Source: Verrucomicrobiota bacterium
GTDB taxonomy: Bacteria; Verrucomicrobiota; Verrucomicrobiia; Limisphaerales; UBA1096
Assembly (NCBI GenBank): GCA_030749225.1
Contig: JASMKO010000028.1
Coordinates: forward strand, 1 to 64,000
DNA: 64,000 nt
Direction of reading: 5' to 3'
The notes beneath the pieces were generated by a model. That model was not told the origin of the DNA and made no database searches. It saw only the letters and a list, made by a program, of their open reading frames with translations. The number at the start of each line of letters is the position of its first letter. Within the stretch, counting starts at the first letter, position 1. The translations under genes and the position numbers were made by a program. Positions 5,010 to 50,543 of this stretch are shown in pieces.

Positions 5010-7631
5010 TCAGTCCTCCGCGTCAGTATCGGCGGCGTCTTCGCTAATAACCGGAGCGATGGCCTGAAGCTGGTCCTTGCCGTGGAGGTTGATGAGCTTG
5101 ACACCCTGCGCATTGCGGCCAGTCATCCGGATGTGCTCGACACCAGTACGCACCATCTGCCCACCGACGGTGATCAACATGATCTCGTCCGTGTCGCGCA
5201 CGGCCAGCGCGCCGCAGACCCCGCCGGTCTTGGCGGTGGTCTTCATGGTGATGATGCCCTTGCCGCCGCGTGACTGCACCCGGTACTCGTCAAACCCAGT
5301 GCGCTTGCCAATCCCATTCTCGCCGGCAACGAGCAGCGTGGCGTCCTTGGCCACGATGGCTGCGGCGACAAGCCGATCCTTCGTGCCGAGGCGGATGCCG
5401 CGCACGCCGGCCGCAGTGCGGCCCATCGATCGGACGTTCTCCTCATTGAAGCGGATGCTCTTGCCATCGCTGGTGATCAGCACGACCTCGTCGTGGCCGG
5501 TAGTCAGCTTGACGGTGATGAGCCTGTCGCCCTCGTTGATTCCGATGGCGTTGATGCCGGTGCGGCGGACGTTCGCGTAGGCACTGAGCGCGGTCTTCTT
5601 CACGGTACCGCTCTCGGTGGCAAAGAACAGGAACCGTTCCTGCTGCCATGTGAGGTCCTTCTTGTTATTGTCCTGCTGCGACTCGACGCGGATCAGCGCC
5701 GCGATCTTTTCGCCAGACTGAAGCTCAAGCAGGTTGGCAATGTTGCGTCCCTTGGCCGAGCGACCCATGTCGGGAATCTCATGCACGCGCCGGACGTACA
5801 CCCGTCCGCTGTTGGTGAAGAACATGAGGTAGTCGTGCGTGCTGGCGGTGAACAGGTGCTCGATGAAGTCCTCGCCCTCGCCCTGCACGACCGATTCCTT
5901 GCGGGTGCCCATGCCGATGACGCCCTTGCCGCCTCGGCGCTGGGCGCGGTAGGAACTGACGTTGGTGCGCTTGATGAGGCCGTTGTGCGTGAGCGTAATG
6001 ATGACACCCTCGTTGGCGATGAGATCCTCAATCGCCATGTCGCCCTCGTCCGGGACGATGTCGGTGCGGCGCGGCGTGGCGTACTTCTCCTTGATGTCAT
6101 TGAGGTCGGCCTTGATGATGCCCAGCACACGATCCTCCCGGGCCAGGATGTCCATCAAGTCCTCGATCTTGACGAGCAACTCGTCGTACTCGGCCTTGAT
6201 CTTGTCCTGCTCCAGTCCAGTCAACTGGTATAGGCGCAGGTCGAGGATGGAGTTCACCTGGGCCTCGCTGAGCAGGTAAAATCCTCCCTTGATGCGCTCC
6301 TTTTTGCGGGCCTTGATGCCCCATTTGTTGAGCACCTTCTCCGGGAACTCGAAGGCGAGCAGCTTGACGCGCGCCTCCTCGCGATTCTTCGAGTTGCGAA
6401 TGATGCGAATGAACTCGTCGAGGTTGGCCAGCGCGCAGAGGTATCCCTCGAGCGTCTCGGCGCGGGCCTCGGCCTTGTCCAGCTCAAAACGCGTGCGGCG
6501 CAGGATGACCTCGCGGCGGTGTTCAATGTAGGCATTGATCAACTCCTTGAGGTTCATCGTCTTGGGCCGGCCATGGTCGATCGCCAGTATGTTCACGCTG
6601 AACGACGTGGCCAGTTGCGTGAACTTGTACAGCTTGTTGATGACCACCTTCGGCACCGCATCGCGCTTGAGTTCGACGACCACACGCGTGTTTTCGTCCG
6701 ACTCGTCGCGCACAGCCGAGATGTCGGTGATCGTCTTGTCGTTGGCCAGCCCGGCGATCTTCTCGACCATCGTGGCGCGGTTGACCATGTAGGGGATCTG
6801 CGTGATGACAATCTGCTCGCGGTTGCCCTTCAACTGCTCAACGCCAACGCGGCCGCGCTGCTTAATGCTGCCCCGGCCGGTCTTGAAATAGTCGCGGATC
6901 GGGTCCAGCCCGACGGCGAGGCAGCCGGTTGGGAAGTCCGGCCCCTTGATGTGCTTCATCAGCCCCTCGATCGTGATATCCGGGTCATCGACCTGTGCGC
7001 AGATGCCGTCGACAATCTCGCCGAGGTTGTGTGGCGGGATGCTGGTCGCCATGCCGACCGCAATGCCGGTGCCCCCGTTGATGAGCAGGTTCGGGAACGC
7101 CGCAGGGAACACCGTCGGCTCCTGCCGGGTCTCATCGTAGTTGGGCACCCAGTCGACCGTGGCCTTGTCCATGTCGGTCATTAGCGCATGGCCGAGGTGC
7201 GTGAGGCGTGCCTCGGTGTAACGCATGGCGGCCGGTGGGTCACCCTCGACGGAGCCGAAGTTCCCCTGCCCGTCGACGAGCGTGCCGCGCATTGACCACG
7301 GCTGGGCCATGTTCACGAGGGTCGGGTAGATCGTCGCTTCGCCGTGCGGGTGATAGTTGCCGCTGGTGTCACCGCAGATCTTGGCACACTTGCGGTACTG
7401 CCGCCCGGGCGAAAGGTTCAGGTCGTGCATCGCGAGCAGGATACGGCGCTGCGACGGCTTGAGCCCATCCCGCGCATCCGGCAGCGCACGCGAAATGATC
7501 ACCGACATCGAGTAGTCGAGGAACGAGTTCTTGATCTCGTCGGCGACGTTGATCTTCTGAATTTTTTCGCTTGCGGCAAACAGCGGCGTGTTGGTTGCAG
7601 GTAAGGGGTCGTTATCCTTGGATTTGGCCAT
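5010..7631 (-). CDS. gyrA: DNA gyrase subunit A
   Basis: [26 protein letters not shown]-terminal GyrA beta-propeller repeats. Confidence 0.97.
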
Positions 7632-43930: not shown

Positions 43931-45355
43931 ATGCTGCTGGGTATGAATCGCTTTCGGCATCTCCTTGCTTCCCTGGCGCTTGGCTTGATTTCCAGCACAA
44001 CCCAAGCGGCAGACAAACCCAACATCATCCTCATCATGTGCGATGATCTCGGATGGGGGGATGTTGCCTTCAATGGCAACAAGATCATCCGAACGCCGCA
44101 CCTGGATGCGATGGCCAAGGCAGGGATGAAGTTCAACCGGTTTTATGCGGCAGCACCGGTTTGCAGCCCCACACGCGGCAGCTGCATCACCGGCCGGCAC
44201 CCGTACCGCTACGGCATTCCGTTCGCGAATAGCGGCCACATGAAACCGGAGGAGTTGGCGCTGGCCGAGCTGCTGAAAAAACAGGGCTACACCACCGGCC
44301 ACTTCGGCAAGTGGCATCTTGGCACACTGACGAAAACGGTAAAGGACGCCAACCGGGGCGGCCCACGCGGCGCGAAGCACTTTTCGCCACCGCAGATGAA
44401 TGGATTCGACGTCTGCTTTTCGACCGAGTCTAAGGTGCCTACGTGGGATCCGCTGTTCAGGCCAAAGGGTAACAACTCCCGCAAGTGGTGGGACGCCGTC
44501 TCCGACGCCGGCGAAGCCAAGCCGTACGGCACAGCCTACTGGAACGAGCGCGGCGAGAGTGTCACCGAGAACACCCGCGGCGATAATTCGCGTGTCATCA
44601 TGGACCGCGCGATTCCGTTCATCCGCGGCGCGGCCAGGCGTGAGCAGCCGTTCTTCGGCGTCGTATGGTTTCACACGCCGCACCTGCCGGTAGTCGCCGG
44701 GCCAAGGCACGCGACGATGTACGCCGCACACCCGAAATACGCGCAGCATTACTACGGCTGCATCACCGCGATGGACGAGCAGGTGGGGCGGTTGCGGGCG
44801 GAGCTGCGAGTGCTTGGGGTTGCTGATGACACGCTGTTGTTTTTCTGCAGTGACAACGGCCCAGAGGGCCAAGCCGGCAAAGCTCCTGGGAGCGCCGGGC
44901 ACCTCAGCGGTCGCAAGCGATCTCTGCTCGAGGGTGGCATCCGTGTGCCAGGCATCGTCGAGTGGCCGGGGCGCGTGCAGGCCGGGCGCTCGACAGACAT
45001 CCCGTGCGTCACCAGCGACTATCTGCCAACCGTCCTCGACCTTGTCGGTGCCAAGCCGGTCAGCGACCGGCCAATCGACGGCATCAGCCTCGTACCGCTG
45101 CTTGACGGCAACTTGGCCAAGCGGGGCCAAGCGATCGGCTTCGAGTCGAAGGGACAACTCGCCTGGATGGAGGACCGTTATAAACTTTACCGCAAAGACA
45201 ACGCGACTGAATTCAAGCTGTTCGATCTCGTTGCTGATCCATCCGAGAAAACCGACTTGGCCAAACGCAAGCCCGACTTGGCCAAACGCTTGGCCACGGA
45301 ACTGGCCACTTGGCGCGCCTCCTGCCGGGCCAGCGCCACCGGGGAGGATTATTGA
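43931..45355 (+). CDS. Sulfatase (arylsulfatase family)
   Basis: PNIILIMCDDLGWGDVAFNGN, VCSPTRGSCITGRHPYR. Confidence 0.95.
   Translation: MLLGMNRFRHLLASLALGLISSTTQAADKPNIILIMCDDLGWGDVAFNGNKIIRTPHLDAMAKAGMKFNRFYAAAPVCSPTRGSCITGRHPYRYGIPFANSGHMKPEELALAELLKKQGYTTGHFGKWHLGTLTKTVKDANRGGPRGAKHFSPPQMNGFDVCFSTESKVPTWDPLFRPKGNNSRKWWDAVSDAGEAKPYGTAYWNERGESVTENTRGDNSRVIMDRAIPFIRGAARREQPFFGVVWFHTPHLPVVAGPRHATMYAAHPKYAQHYYGCITAMDEQVGRLRAELRVLGVADDTLLFFCSDNGPEGQAGKAPGSAGHLSGRKRSLLEGGIRVPGIVEWPGRVQAGRSTDIPCVTSDYLPTVLDLVGAKPVSDRPIDGISLVPLLDGNLAKRGQAIGFESKGQLAWMEDRYKLYRKDNATEFKLFDLVADPSEKTDLAKRKPDLAKRLATELATWRASCRASATGEDY
45256..45298. repeat. Cluster of three near-copies of the palindrome in a sulfatase C-terminus
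   Basis: CTTGGCCAAA at 45256 and 45277, CTTGGCCACG at 45289. Confidence 0.9.
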
Positions 45356-48140: not shown

Positions 48141-49643
48141 TCAGCGGCTGCGGCCGTTGTCCCGGATTTCCTCGAGCCGCGCCGTCAGCCTCCCGACCAA
48201 ATTCGGCTTGGCCTTGGCCAAGTCGTTACGCTCACCCAGGTCACTCGATAGGTCAAACAGCCGGTACGGCTTGGCAAACGGCTTTCCCTTCGGTGCCTCG
48301 CGTCCACCGGAGCCGTTGCCGGCGATCAGTTTCCATTTACCACTGCGCAGCGCAAACATGCCACTGGCACTGTGATGAATCACCGGCGCGCGCAGGTTGC
48401 CCCAGTCGCCGCCTTGGAACAGCGGCAGCCAACTGAAGCTGTCCTCGGCCGAGTCGTCCGGCAGCTTGGCCCCGGTGAGCTCGGCGCAGGTGGCAAACAG
48501 ATCCACGTGAGCCGTGGGTTTGTCACAAGTTGACCCAGCCGCGATCACTCCCGGCCAACGCGCGAAGAACGGCACGCGATGGCCGGCTTCCCACACGTCC
48601 GCCTTGGTGCCGCGCAGATCACCATTGGCAGTGTGATGTTTTTCATTGTACGCCTGCACCGTTGGGTCGCTGACATGATCATCCTTTTCATCAGCGCCAC
48701 GCCGGTACATGAAGGATCCGTTGTCGCTGGTGTAAATAAGCAGCGTGTTTTTTCCAATGCCCGCCTCGCGAATCGCCTGCATCACCTGTCCCACCGTCCA
48801 GTCAACCTGCATCACAAAGTCGCCGTACAAGCCAATCCCCGACTTGCCGATGAACCGCGAGTGCGGCTGCACTGGCTTGTGCGGCGCAGTCAGCGGAAAG
48901 TAGAGAAAAAACGGCTGATCTTTTTTGGCGCGCTCACGAATGACGTGGGTCGCCCGACGCGTAAGGTCATCGAGGCAGTCATCCATCACCAAGCCGGGCT
49001 GGCGTGGCCCGCGACGCAGAAAACCGGGGAACTTGACCGCCGGCTGGTCGATCGTCGGCGGCTCAATGACACGGCCGTTCTCGATGTAGACATATGGCGG
49101 GAAGTCAAGCGATGCCGGGATGATGAACGAGTCATTAAAGCCGTGCTCATTCGGCCCGTCGGTGACCGGCTTGGCATAGTCAATCTTCCCATCGGCGCCC
49201 TTCTGGAAACCCAACCCCAGGTGCCACTTGCCAACCACGCTGGTGTGATAGCCCTCGGCGCGCAACATCCCGGCAACCGTCAACCGTCCCGGCTCCAGCA
49301 GCGGCGTACTGTAGCCGTTGAGCACCCCGCGCTTCAGCCGCGAGCGCCAGCAATACCGGCCGGTCAACACCCCGTATCGCGTCGGCGTGCAGACCGCAGA
49401 CGGCGAGTGGGCGTCGGTGAAGGTCATACCCTGCTTGGCCAAGCGGTTGAGATTTGGCGTTGGCACCCTGGATCGGGAGTTCAGTGCCTGCACATCGCCG
49501 TAGCCCATGTCATCGGCGAGCACAAATACGATATTCGGCTTGGCCGCGAACGCCGCTTGGCCAAGCGCCACCGCCATCGTTACCATGGCAGCCCCCATGC
49601 CCAATCGATGCCAAACGGGTTGAAAGAGATCTCTTGATTTCAT
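48141..49643 (-). CDS. Sulfatase (arylsulfatase family)
   Basis: KPNIVFVLADDMGYGDVQALN, AVCTPTRYGVLTGRYCWRS; signal peptide from MKSRDLFQ. Confidence 0.94.
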   Translation of the reverse strand: MKSRDLFQPVWHRLGMGAAMVTMAVALGQAAFAAKPNIVFVLADDMGYGDVQALNSRSRVPTPNLNRLAKQGMTFTDAHSPSAVCTPTRYGVLTGRYCWRSRLKRGVLNGYSTPLLEPGRLTVAGMLRAEGYHTSVVGKWHLGLGFQKGADGKIDYAKPVTDGPNEHGFNDSFIIPASLDFPPYVYIENGRVIEPPTIDQPAVKFPGFLRRGPRQPGLVMDDCLDDLTRRATHVIRERAKKDQPFFLYFPLTAPHKPVQPHSRFIGKSGIGLYGDFVMQVDWTVGQVMQAIREAGIGKNTLLIYTSDNGSFMYRRGADEKDDHVSDPTVQAYNEKHHTANGDLRGTKADVWEAGHRVPFFARWPGVIAAGSTCDKPTAHVDLFATCAELTGAKLPDDSAEDSFSWLPLFQGGDWGNLRAPVIHHSASGMFALRSGKWKLIAGNGSGGREAPKGKPFAKPYRLFDLSSDLGERNDLAKAKPNLVGRLTARLEEIRDNGRSR

Positions 49644-49674
49644 GAAAGCCCAGCAGTCTACGGCTAGTGAGCCG

Positions 49675-49684
49675 CTTGGCCAAG
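49675..49684. repeat. Intergenic copy of CTTGGCCAAG
   Basis: Exact match upstream of the sulfatase. Confidence 0.95.
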
Positions 49685-49696
49685 CCACCTGTAGTC

Positions 49697-49745
49697 TGGG
49701 GAATATTCCCCACATACGATTGTGCAAAATGGGAAATAATTCCCA
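49697..49745. promoter_or_regulatory. Two related inverted repeats, candidate activator-binding sites
   Basis: TGGGGAATATTCCCCA (49697-49712, perfect) and TGGGAA-ATAA-TTCCCA (49730-49745), centres 33 bp apart. Confidence 0.65.
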
Positions 49746-49830
49746 ATAACACGGCTTTTTCACCAAAAGTTCAACTAATTTATTATGAGCTAAACAGCTA
49801 ATTTAAAGTTACTTAAAGATTATAACAAAA

Positions 49831-49847
49831 TTGGCACACAGACTGCG
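49831..49847 (+). promoter_or_regulatory. Candidate sigma-54 (-24/-12) promoter
   Basis: TTGGCACACAGACTGCG; GG and GC separated by exactly 10 nt; close to YTGGCACGN4TTGCW. Confidence 0.55.
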
Positions 49848-49914
49848 TATCAATCTGACGGATGGCGAGGGGGTCTCGCCTTTTAATTGGTAAAAAACTG
49901 AAAGAAAACAGATC

Positions 49915-50487
49915 ATGAAAATTAAAACATTAGTGATTGTGAGTGCCATCGGCATCGCGTTGGTAACGCCAGAGTCATTGCAGGCACAGGCGAAACCAAA
50001 GCCGGTCAAGCCGGATGCTGGAGATATCAAGGAGGACGGCAAGGAACGCCCGAAAATCGATGTTGCAAAAATCAAGGAACGCCTCAAGGCCGCCTTCGAC
50101 AAGCGCAAAAAGAAACGTGGCGACGCCAAGAAGGAAGGTCACAAAGTAGGTGGCAAGAAGGGTCACAAGGGTGGCGGCGCGTTCGGCAAGCTGGTTCGTG
50201 ACGACGAGAAAATCAAGGAACTGCGCGACGCGTTCCACACGGCCGCCAAGGAACAGCACGCCAAAGTCAAGGACCTCCACAAACAGCTCAAGGATGCCTC
50301 CGATGAGGACAAGGATGGCCTTCGCGAGCAGCTAAAGGGCATGCGAACCGAATGGGTCGAGAACATGAAGGGCAACCGCGAGGAGGTGCGCGCCCGGATC
50401 AAGGAGATCCGCGAGGAGTTCAAGAACAAGCGTGACGAAGTCATCGACGCCAACGACGATGATGGCAACGACGATCCGGGCGAATAA
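49915..50487 (+). CDS. Exported, highly charged Lys/Glu/Asp-rich protein
   Basis: Signal peptide MKIKTLVIVSAIGIALVTPESLQAQA then K/E/D-rich, probably helical. Confidence 0.8.
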   Translation: MKIKTLVIVSAIGIALVTPESLQAQAKPKPVKPDAGDIKEDGKERPKIDVAKIKERLKAAFDKRKKKRGDAKKEGHKVGGKKGHKGGGAFGKLVRDDEKIKELRDAFHTAAKEQHAKVKDLHKQLKDASDEDKDGLREQLKGMRTEWVENMKGNREEVRARIKEIREEFKNKRDEVIDANDDDGNDDPGE

Positions 50488-50513: not shown

Positions 50514-50543
50514 CAGGCAGCGGAAACGCTGCCTGTTTTTTTT
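50514..50543 (+). terminator. Rho-independent terminator with GAAA tetraloop
   Basis: CAGGCAGCG-GAAA-CGCTGCCTG-TTTTTTTT. Confidence 0.95.

Follow-up and report, generated by a model that had tools for sequence, protein, structure and literature searches.

Upstream of a gene for an exported, highly charged protein in a Verrucomicrobiota genome lie two inverted repeats and an element resembling a sigma-54 promoter, in an intergenic region from which a sulfatase gene diverges as well. The locus raises the question of which gene these elements serve and which regulator acts through them. The window analyzed here, i.e., a stretch of 64,000 nucleotides, had been given a preliminary description that read the repeats as enhancer sites, had the promoter drive the charged protein, and was silent on the sulfatase. 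Upon re-reading the sequence, we found both palindromes exactly where they had been placed, 33 bp apart, which amounts to three helical turns and puts them on the same DNA face. The -24/-12 element had been located correctly to the base, with 10 bases between GG and GC (the GG-N10-GC core), and the palindrome centers lie ~120 and 153 bp upstream of the implied start, in agreement with the ~120 and ~150 bp first given. The features of the locus are listed in Table 1.

Table 1. Features of the sulfatase-target intergenic region and its flanks (window coordinates).
Feature	Position	Strand	Remarks
Sulfatase-family gene	48141..49643	-	Divergent from target; PF00884, E 3.4e-51
Outer operator	49697..49712	.	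Palindrome TGGGGAATATTCCCCA; presumed activator-binding site 1; operator-matrix score 24.8
Inner operator	49730..49745	.	Palindrome TGGGAAATAATTCCCA; presumed activator-binding site 2; operator-matrix score 24.9
A+T-rich IHF-like block	49791..49803	.	TAAACAGCTAATT; resembles IHF consensus YAANNNNTTGATW
Sigma-54 -24/-12 promoter	49831..49847	+	TTGGCACACAGACTGCG; GG 49833-34, GC 49845-46
Implied transcription start	49858 (about 49857-49858)	+	Inferred, ~12 bp past the -12 GC
5' UTR hairpin	49864..49880	+	GGCGAG-GGGGT-CTCGCC, near mRNA 5' end
Target gene	49915..50487	+	Exported, highly charged protein, 190 aa; predicted helical hairpin
Intrinsic-terminator-like hairpin and T run	50514..50543	+	3' of target gene; from sequence

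With up to two mismatches allowed, the palindrome pattern TGGGRAWWWWTYCCCA matched the 64-kb window at just these two sites, while shuffled windows gave a mean of 0.32 matches and reached at least two in 5 of 100 shuffles. The draft genome (3.08 Mb, 80% complete) was searched by patterns, not by matrix. The strict pattern had no exact match there besides this pair, no second pair occurred within three mismatches of TTGGGRAATAWTYCCCAA, and no lone weak site was accompanied by a good sigma-54 element at the distance conserved in the genus. Further pairs elsewhere in the genome, which the preliminary description had proposed to look for, were thus not found, and since the pair is unique in the draft genome, it fits a dedicated operator. 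Other palindromes inspected in genomes of the same genus also lacked a sigma-54 element of good quality at that distance, and we rejected them as regulon members and took them as chance occurrences. The operator consensus of the two palindromes is TTGGGGAATAWTCCCCAA, and covariation between their arms was not clearly above control. As for the promoter, the pattern TTGGCACN5YTGC had one exact match in the window and was not enriched there with one mismatch allowed; the -12 element in the window is CTGC, departing from TTGC. Operators were scored over 18 bp with a matrix trained on sites from the genus, and sigma-54 elements with a hand-made table. Operator or promoter singly is modest evidence; their combination is more than modest, since none of 20 shuffled windows contained an operator (score of at least 15) and a sigma-54 element (score of at least 20) 60-160 bp apart.

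A separate repeat also occurs in this region. GCTTGGCCAAGC is a highly iterated palindrome, with 738 copies in the 3.08-Mb draft genome vs. 0 for the reversed control, and it behaves like cyanobacterial HIP1. Most same-genus genomes carry about 140-1840 copies and three (G001, G005, and G019) carry 6-13. TTGGCCAA is present in 51 copies in the window (e.g., 49674-49685), and one copy of the iterated palindrome, just 5' of the outer operator, is largely kept there across the genus.

We then compared the DNA upstream of 16 orthologous target genes from the same genus (protein identity 68-98%). TGGCAY-N5-YTGC was present in all 16 genomes, with GG and GC invariant. The inner palindrome fitted the matrix in nearly all of them (weakly in G007), and the outer palindrome was clear in most, having diverged in G001, G005, G014, and G019. 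Spacing between the palindromes was 31-34 bp. Measured from the first base of the 18-bp inner operator, the -24 GG lies 101-104 bp away in all but one of the 16 genomes, the exception being at 94 bp.

An IHF site between enhancer and promoter is common at sigma-54 promoters, but it is not obligatory. The A+T-rich block between operator and promoter agrees with the IHF consensus at 7 of 9 specified positions in the window, and it is the best IHF-like block in the genus alignment, where it is conserved (121 of 144 positions). Such a block was not enriched at loci outside the genus, and two HU/IHF-family genes in the genome both score below the IHF cut-offs. IHF as an established part of the switch was not supported at loci outside the genus. 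The 5' UTR hairpin has a calculated folding energy of -10.7 kcal/mol (z -1.95), and 90% of its pair cells are retained across the genus with no two-sided compensation. Downstream, the gene order is target, terminator-like hairpin, and a CbiX gene, and the position of the hairpin suggests that the target is transcribed as a single-gene message.

A sigma-54 switch needs its sigma factor and an activator, and the genome encodes both. The rpoN gene is present in the draft genome (G000:C46; Sigma54_DBD, E 1.8e-57), as are several NtrC-type activators, so that both genes sought after the preliminary description were found. Three of the activators (C31, C117, and C4) are NtrC-like proteins of the GAFTGA type, two of which read GSFTGA. 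Two further activators are of a distinct kind, here called EBP-X: full-length C60, and C74, which is cut by a contig end and is 72% identical to C60 over its C-terminal part. These paralogs (G000:C60 and G000:C74) adjoin different genes, and both are candidates for acting at the window operator. EBP-X has a receiver (PF00072), a Sigma54_activat domain (PF00158), and a Fis-type HTH (PF02954), all above cut-off, and its receiver aspartate, Walker A, and HTH regions are intact, the last reading around NVSAAARLLGVSRDYxRYR. The GAFTGA loop is absent from the clade; GAFTDA takes its place throughout, with GSFTDA in two class-level members. GAFTDA has been listed among the EBP loop variants expected to maintain activity, in DVU2106 (PMC4641369). 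The membrane histidine kinase found at related loci (below) has a homolog at G000:C95 (37% identity, E 2.4e-66), which is the candidate kinase. The rpoN gene, the EBP-X copies, and this kinase gene all lie at loci apart from the window switch.

Since the sulfatase is a constant neighbor of the target in the genus, genus data cannot tell whose operator this is, and loci outside the genus are decisive. Distant homologs of the target were found in seven other families of the order, each with an operator-like site 5' of the gene and with the sulfatase replaced by other neighbors. Five of the seven families have an EBP gene ending just 5' of the target; the operator there either sits in the gap or overlaps the end of that gene. 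Genomes in which an EBP-X gene immediately precedes the target are G021, G022, G025, G033, G046, G031, and G032; operator and activator gene are linked in several families. In G031 and G032, the EBP-X gene is accompanied by an operator, a canonical sigma-54 promoter (TGGCATGGGCTTTGC, TGGCATCGAGGTTGC), and an exported helical protein that had escaped the protein search. Genes for a barrel-like protein and for a membrane histidine kinase follow at several of the loci outside the genus. Some individual loci have features of their own. G046 (L089, G046:C344) carries two tandem target copies (5166-5747 and 6001-6570) behind its EBP-X gene; at L037/L094 (G034:C222), the gene 5' of the target encodes a protein whose C-terminus, by reading, is PEP-CTERM-like; and contig JAPOIJ010000189.1 (L054), labelled Planctomycetota, carries a 69%-identical target, a full operator pair (33 bp), and a promoter. 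The last contig may have been misbinned or misnamed, or may owe the locus to transfer.

At the level of the order, all seven genomes with a detectable target fall among the 11 of 37 that have EBP-X (hypergeometric 330/10,295,472, ~3e-5, a value that ignores relatedness). A search of 384 genomes of the class with a profile of the EBP-X C-terminus gave 40 positives. Complete class-level genomes such as G136 are among those that have the locus. An operator paired with a sigma-54 element at 60-160 bp occurred at 13 of 21 EBP-X loci outside the genus vs. 1.2% of shuffled loci, and control loci (173 kb, both strands counted) contained no such pair. At most of the 13 paired loci, a gene for a small exported helical protein comes next. 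The other eight class-level loci had no operator-promoter pair beside the activator; two of these (G023 and G034) have the pair at a target gene elsewhere. Operator-to-promoter distances outside the genus were 93-96, 102-106, 126-135, and 145-149 bp. The inner site lies near 94 or 104 bp from the -24, and the longer distances mostly belong to the outer operator, which adds about 30, 33, or 43 bp, the pair spacings outside the genus being 30, 33, or 43 bp; in L186, from another family, the pair is exactly 33 bp apart, as in the window. Operator-promoter distances are quantized by about one helical turn. With spacing conserved in 16 genomes of the genus and phased distances recurring outside it, the enhancer-style phasing proposed in the preliminary description holds up, and recurrence of operator and promoter upstream of distant homologs across the class also supports its assignment of the promoter to the charged exported protein.

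Considering these results, we judge, with a probability of roughly 0.85, that the locus is a two-component, sigma-54-dependent switch controlling an exported helical-hairpin protein, with an activator from the EBP-X clade. Linkage points to EBP-X as the protein that would bind the palindromes and drive the promoter. The promoter could be sigma-54-dependent while the palindromes are bound by C31, C117, C4, or a non-EBP factor, since within the genus the EBP-X gene is neither beside the target nor near an operator, three GAFTGA-type EBPs are also encoded in the genome, and EBP-X was not found in G007 (73% complete) or G017 (93% complete), both of which have target and operator. However, EBP-X adjoins operator and target in several families and co-occurs with the target. 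C31, C117, and C4 differ from it in HTH sequence and do not belong to its clade, which unites full-length C60 with the EBPs from the other families; we consider a different binding protein improbable. Autoregulation of EBP-X or of the kinase was rejected for the genus, neither gene having an operator nearby.

It is even less probable that the palindromes are operators for a repressor or activator of the divergent sulfatase and that the sigma-54-like element is coincidental. The palindromes, at 55 and 87 bp from the sulfatase start on its upstream side, are indeed closer to it than to the target start, and in the genus the sulfatase adjoins the target at nearly all loci with long enough flanks (as CbiX does in most). 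But outside the genus, where the sulfatase is not the neighbor, the operator travels with the exported-protein gene, so the operator probably does not serve the sulfatase; the conserved -24/-12 element keeps a fixed spacing from the operator, and on the sulfatase side the sole sigma-54-like match falls within the sulfatase coding sequence. Since relatives without the sulfatase keep the operator beside the target, we rejected the palindromes as sulfatase operators. Two sulfatase-family genes (PF00884) lie within 6 kb in the window, at 43931-45355 and 48141-49643. Chance resemblance of the palindromes and the -24/-12 match would be in keeping with the modest palindrome count and the lack of enrichment of the one-mismatch promoter pattern, but we give it practically no credence when 16 genomes of the genus conserve the elements at fixed spacing and other families repeat the phased distances.

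The N-terminus of the protein encoded by the target gene is signal-like, and the protein has a charged region of low complexity and, in the predicted structure, a long helical hairpin (residues 98-127 and 130-182); mean pLDDT of the model was 65.6, rising to about 80-89 within the hairpin. Searches of Pfam, NCBIfam, and the PDB gave no relative of the family past generic coiled-coil matches, and a Foldseek search gave no significant match to the fold, the best being Skp (E 1.4, probability 0.54). Assignment of the target to a known family was therefore rejected. Matches to Metal_resist were weak and confined to 2 of 20 members of the target family (best E 0.0029), with none listed for the window protein. 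By analogy with ZraP, Spy, or Skp, a role in envelope stress or as a chaperone is weakly supported.

In the mechanism that we propose for the EBP-X switch, the membrane histidine kinase (G000:C95 being the candidate homolog) would respond to a signal and phosphorylate EBP-X (G000:C60 and/or its paralog C74), which would then bind both palindromes. Its AAA+ ring would assemble, reach the RNA polymerase-sigma-54 complex at the promoter by DNA looping, possibly aided by a bend in the A+T-rich block, and open the complex. Transcription would start near 49858 and yield a short mRNA with a 5' hairpin, coding for the exported helical-hairpin protein.

In ZraSR-zraP of enterobacteria, a two-component system acting through sigma-54 controls a small, helical protein of the periplasm. 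The proposed switch resembles it in having a receiver-AAA+-HTH activator, paired upstream sites, a sigma-54 promoter, and a small, exported, helical, charged target, and, at related loci, in the clustering of a membrane kinase gene with the others. In contrast, EBP-X scores 250.7 bits against the 760-bit cut-off of the ZraR model, the genes are scattered in this genus, and the operator sequence and the signal may differ. Since the switch would work like ZraSR-zraP but falls outside the ZraR and ZraP families, we place it in the general class of two-component sigma-54 systems. The target shares with Skp/OmpH chaperones an exported long helical hairpin, and in related loci a barrel-like gene follows; however, the structural match was not significant and neither a sequence match nor a Pfam OmpH match was found. 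EBP-X has the domain order and sigma-54 interaction domain of the PEP-CTERM response regulator (TIGR02915) and of NtrC-family EBPs, yet it scores below every curated cut-off of the named NCBIfam EBP families listed, carries GAFTDA, and forms its own HTH clade. Desulfovibrio vulgaris DVU2106 also reads GAFTDA. It is an EBP whose target operons have been assigned, but it is listed as a single-component regulator of cell-division-related operons (PMC4641369), whereas EBP-X bears a receiver domain.

The mechanism of such a switch is itself textbook. We lean slightly towards the view that the locus belongs to an undescribed, class-wide verrucomicrobial envelope-sensing circuit. It would comprise a GAFTDA response-regulator activator, a membrane kinase, a barrel-like protein of the outer membrane, and an exported helical-hairpin protein of a new family, joined by TTGGGGAATAWTCCCCAA at quantized helical distances, one genus having scattered the genes and kept the wiring. 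Among the papers searched, none combined the terms Verrucomicrobia, sigma-54, and enhancer binding protein, so an assignment of activator, operator, promoter, and target with comparative support is useful for this group. It provides a precise operator to search for and a defined clade of regulators, and the enhancer distances found in nature, stepped by whole helical turns, bear on how strict looping geometry is at sigma-54 promoters. Finally, the scattered genes of this genus suggest that regulatory links can survive when a gene cluster is dispersed.
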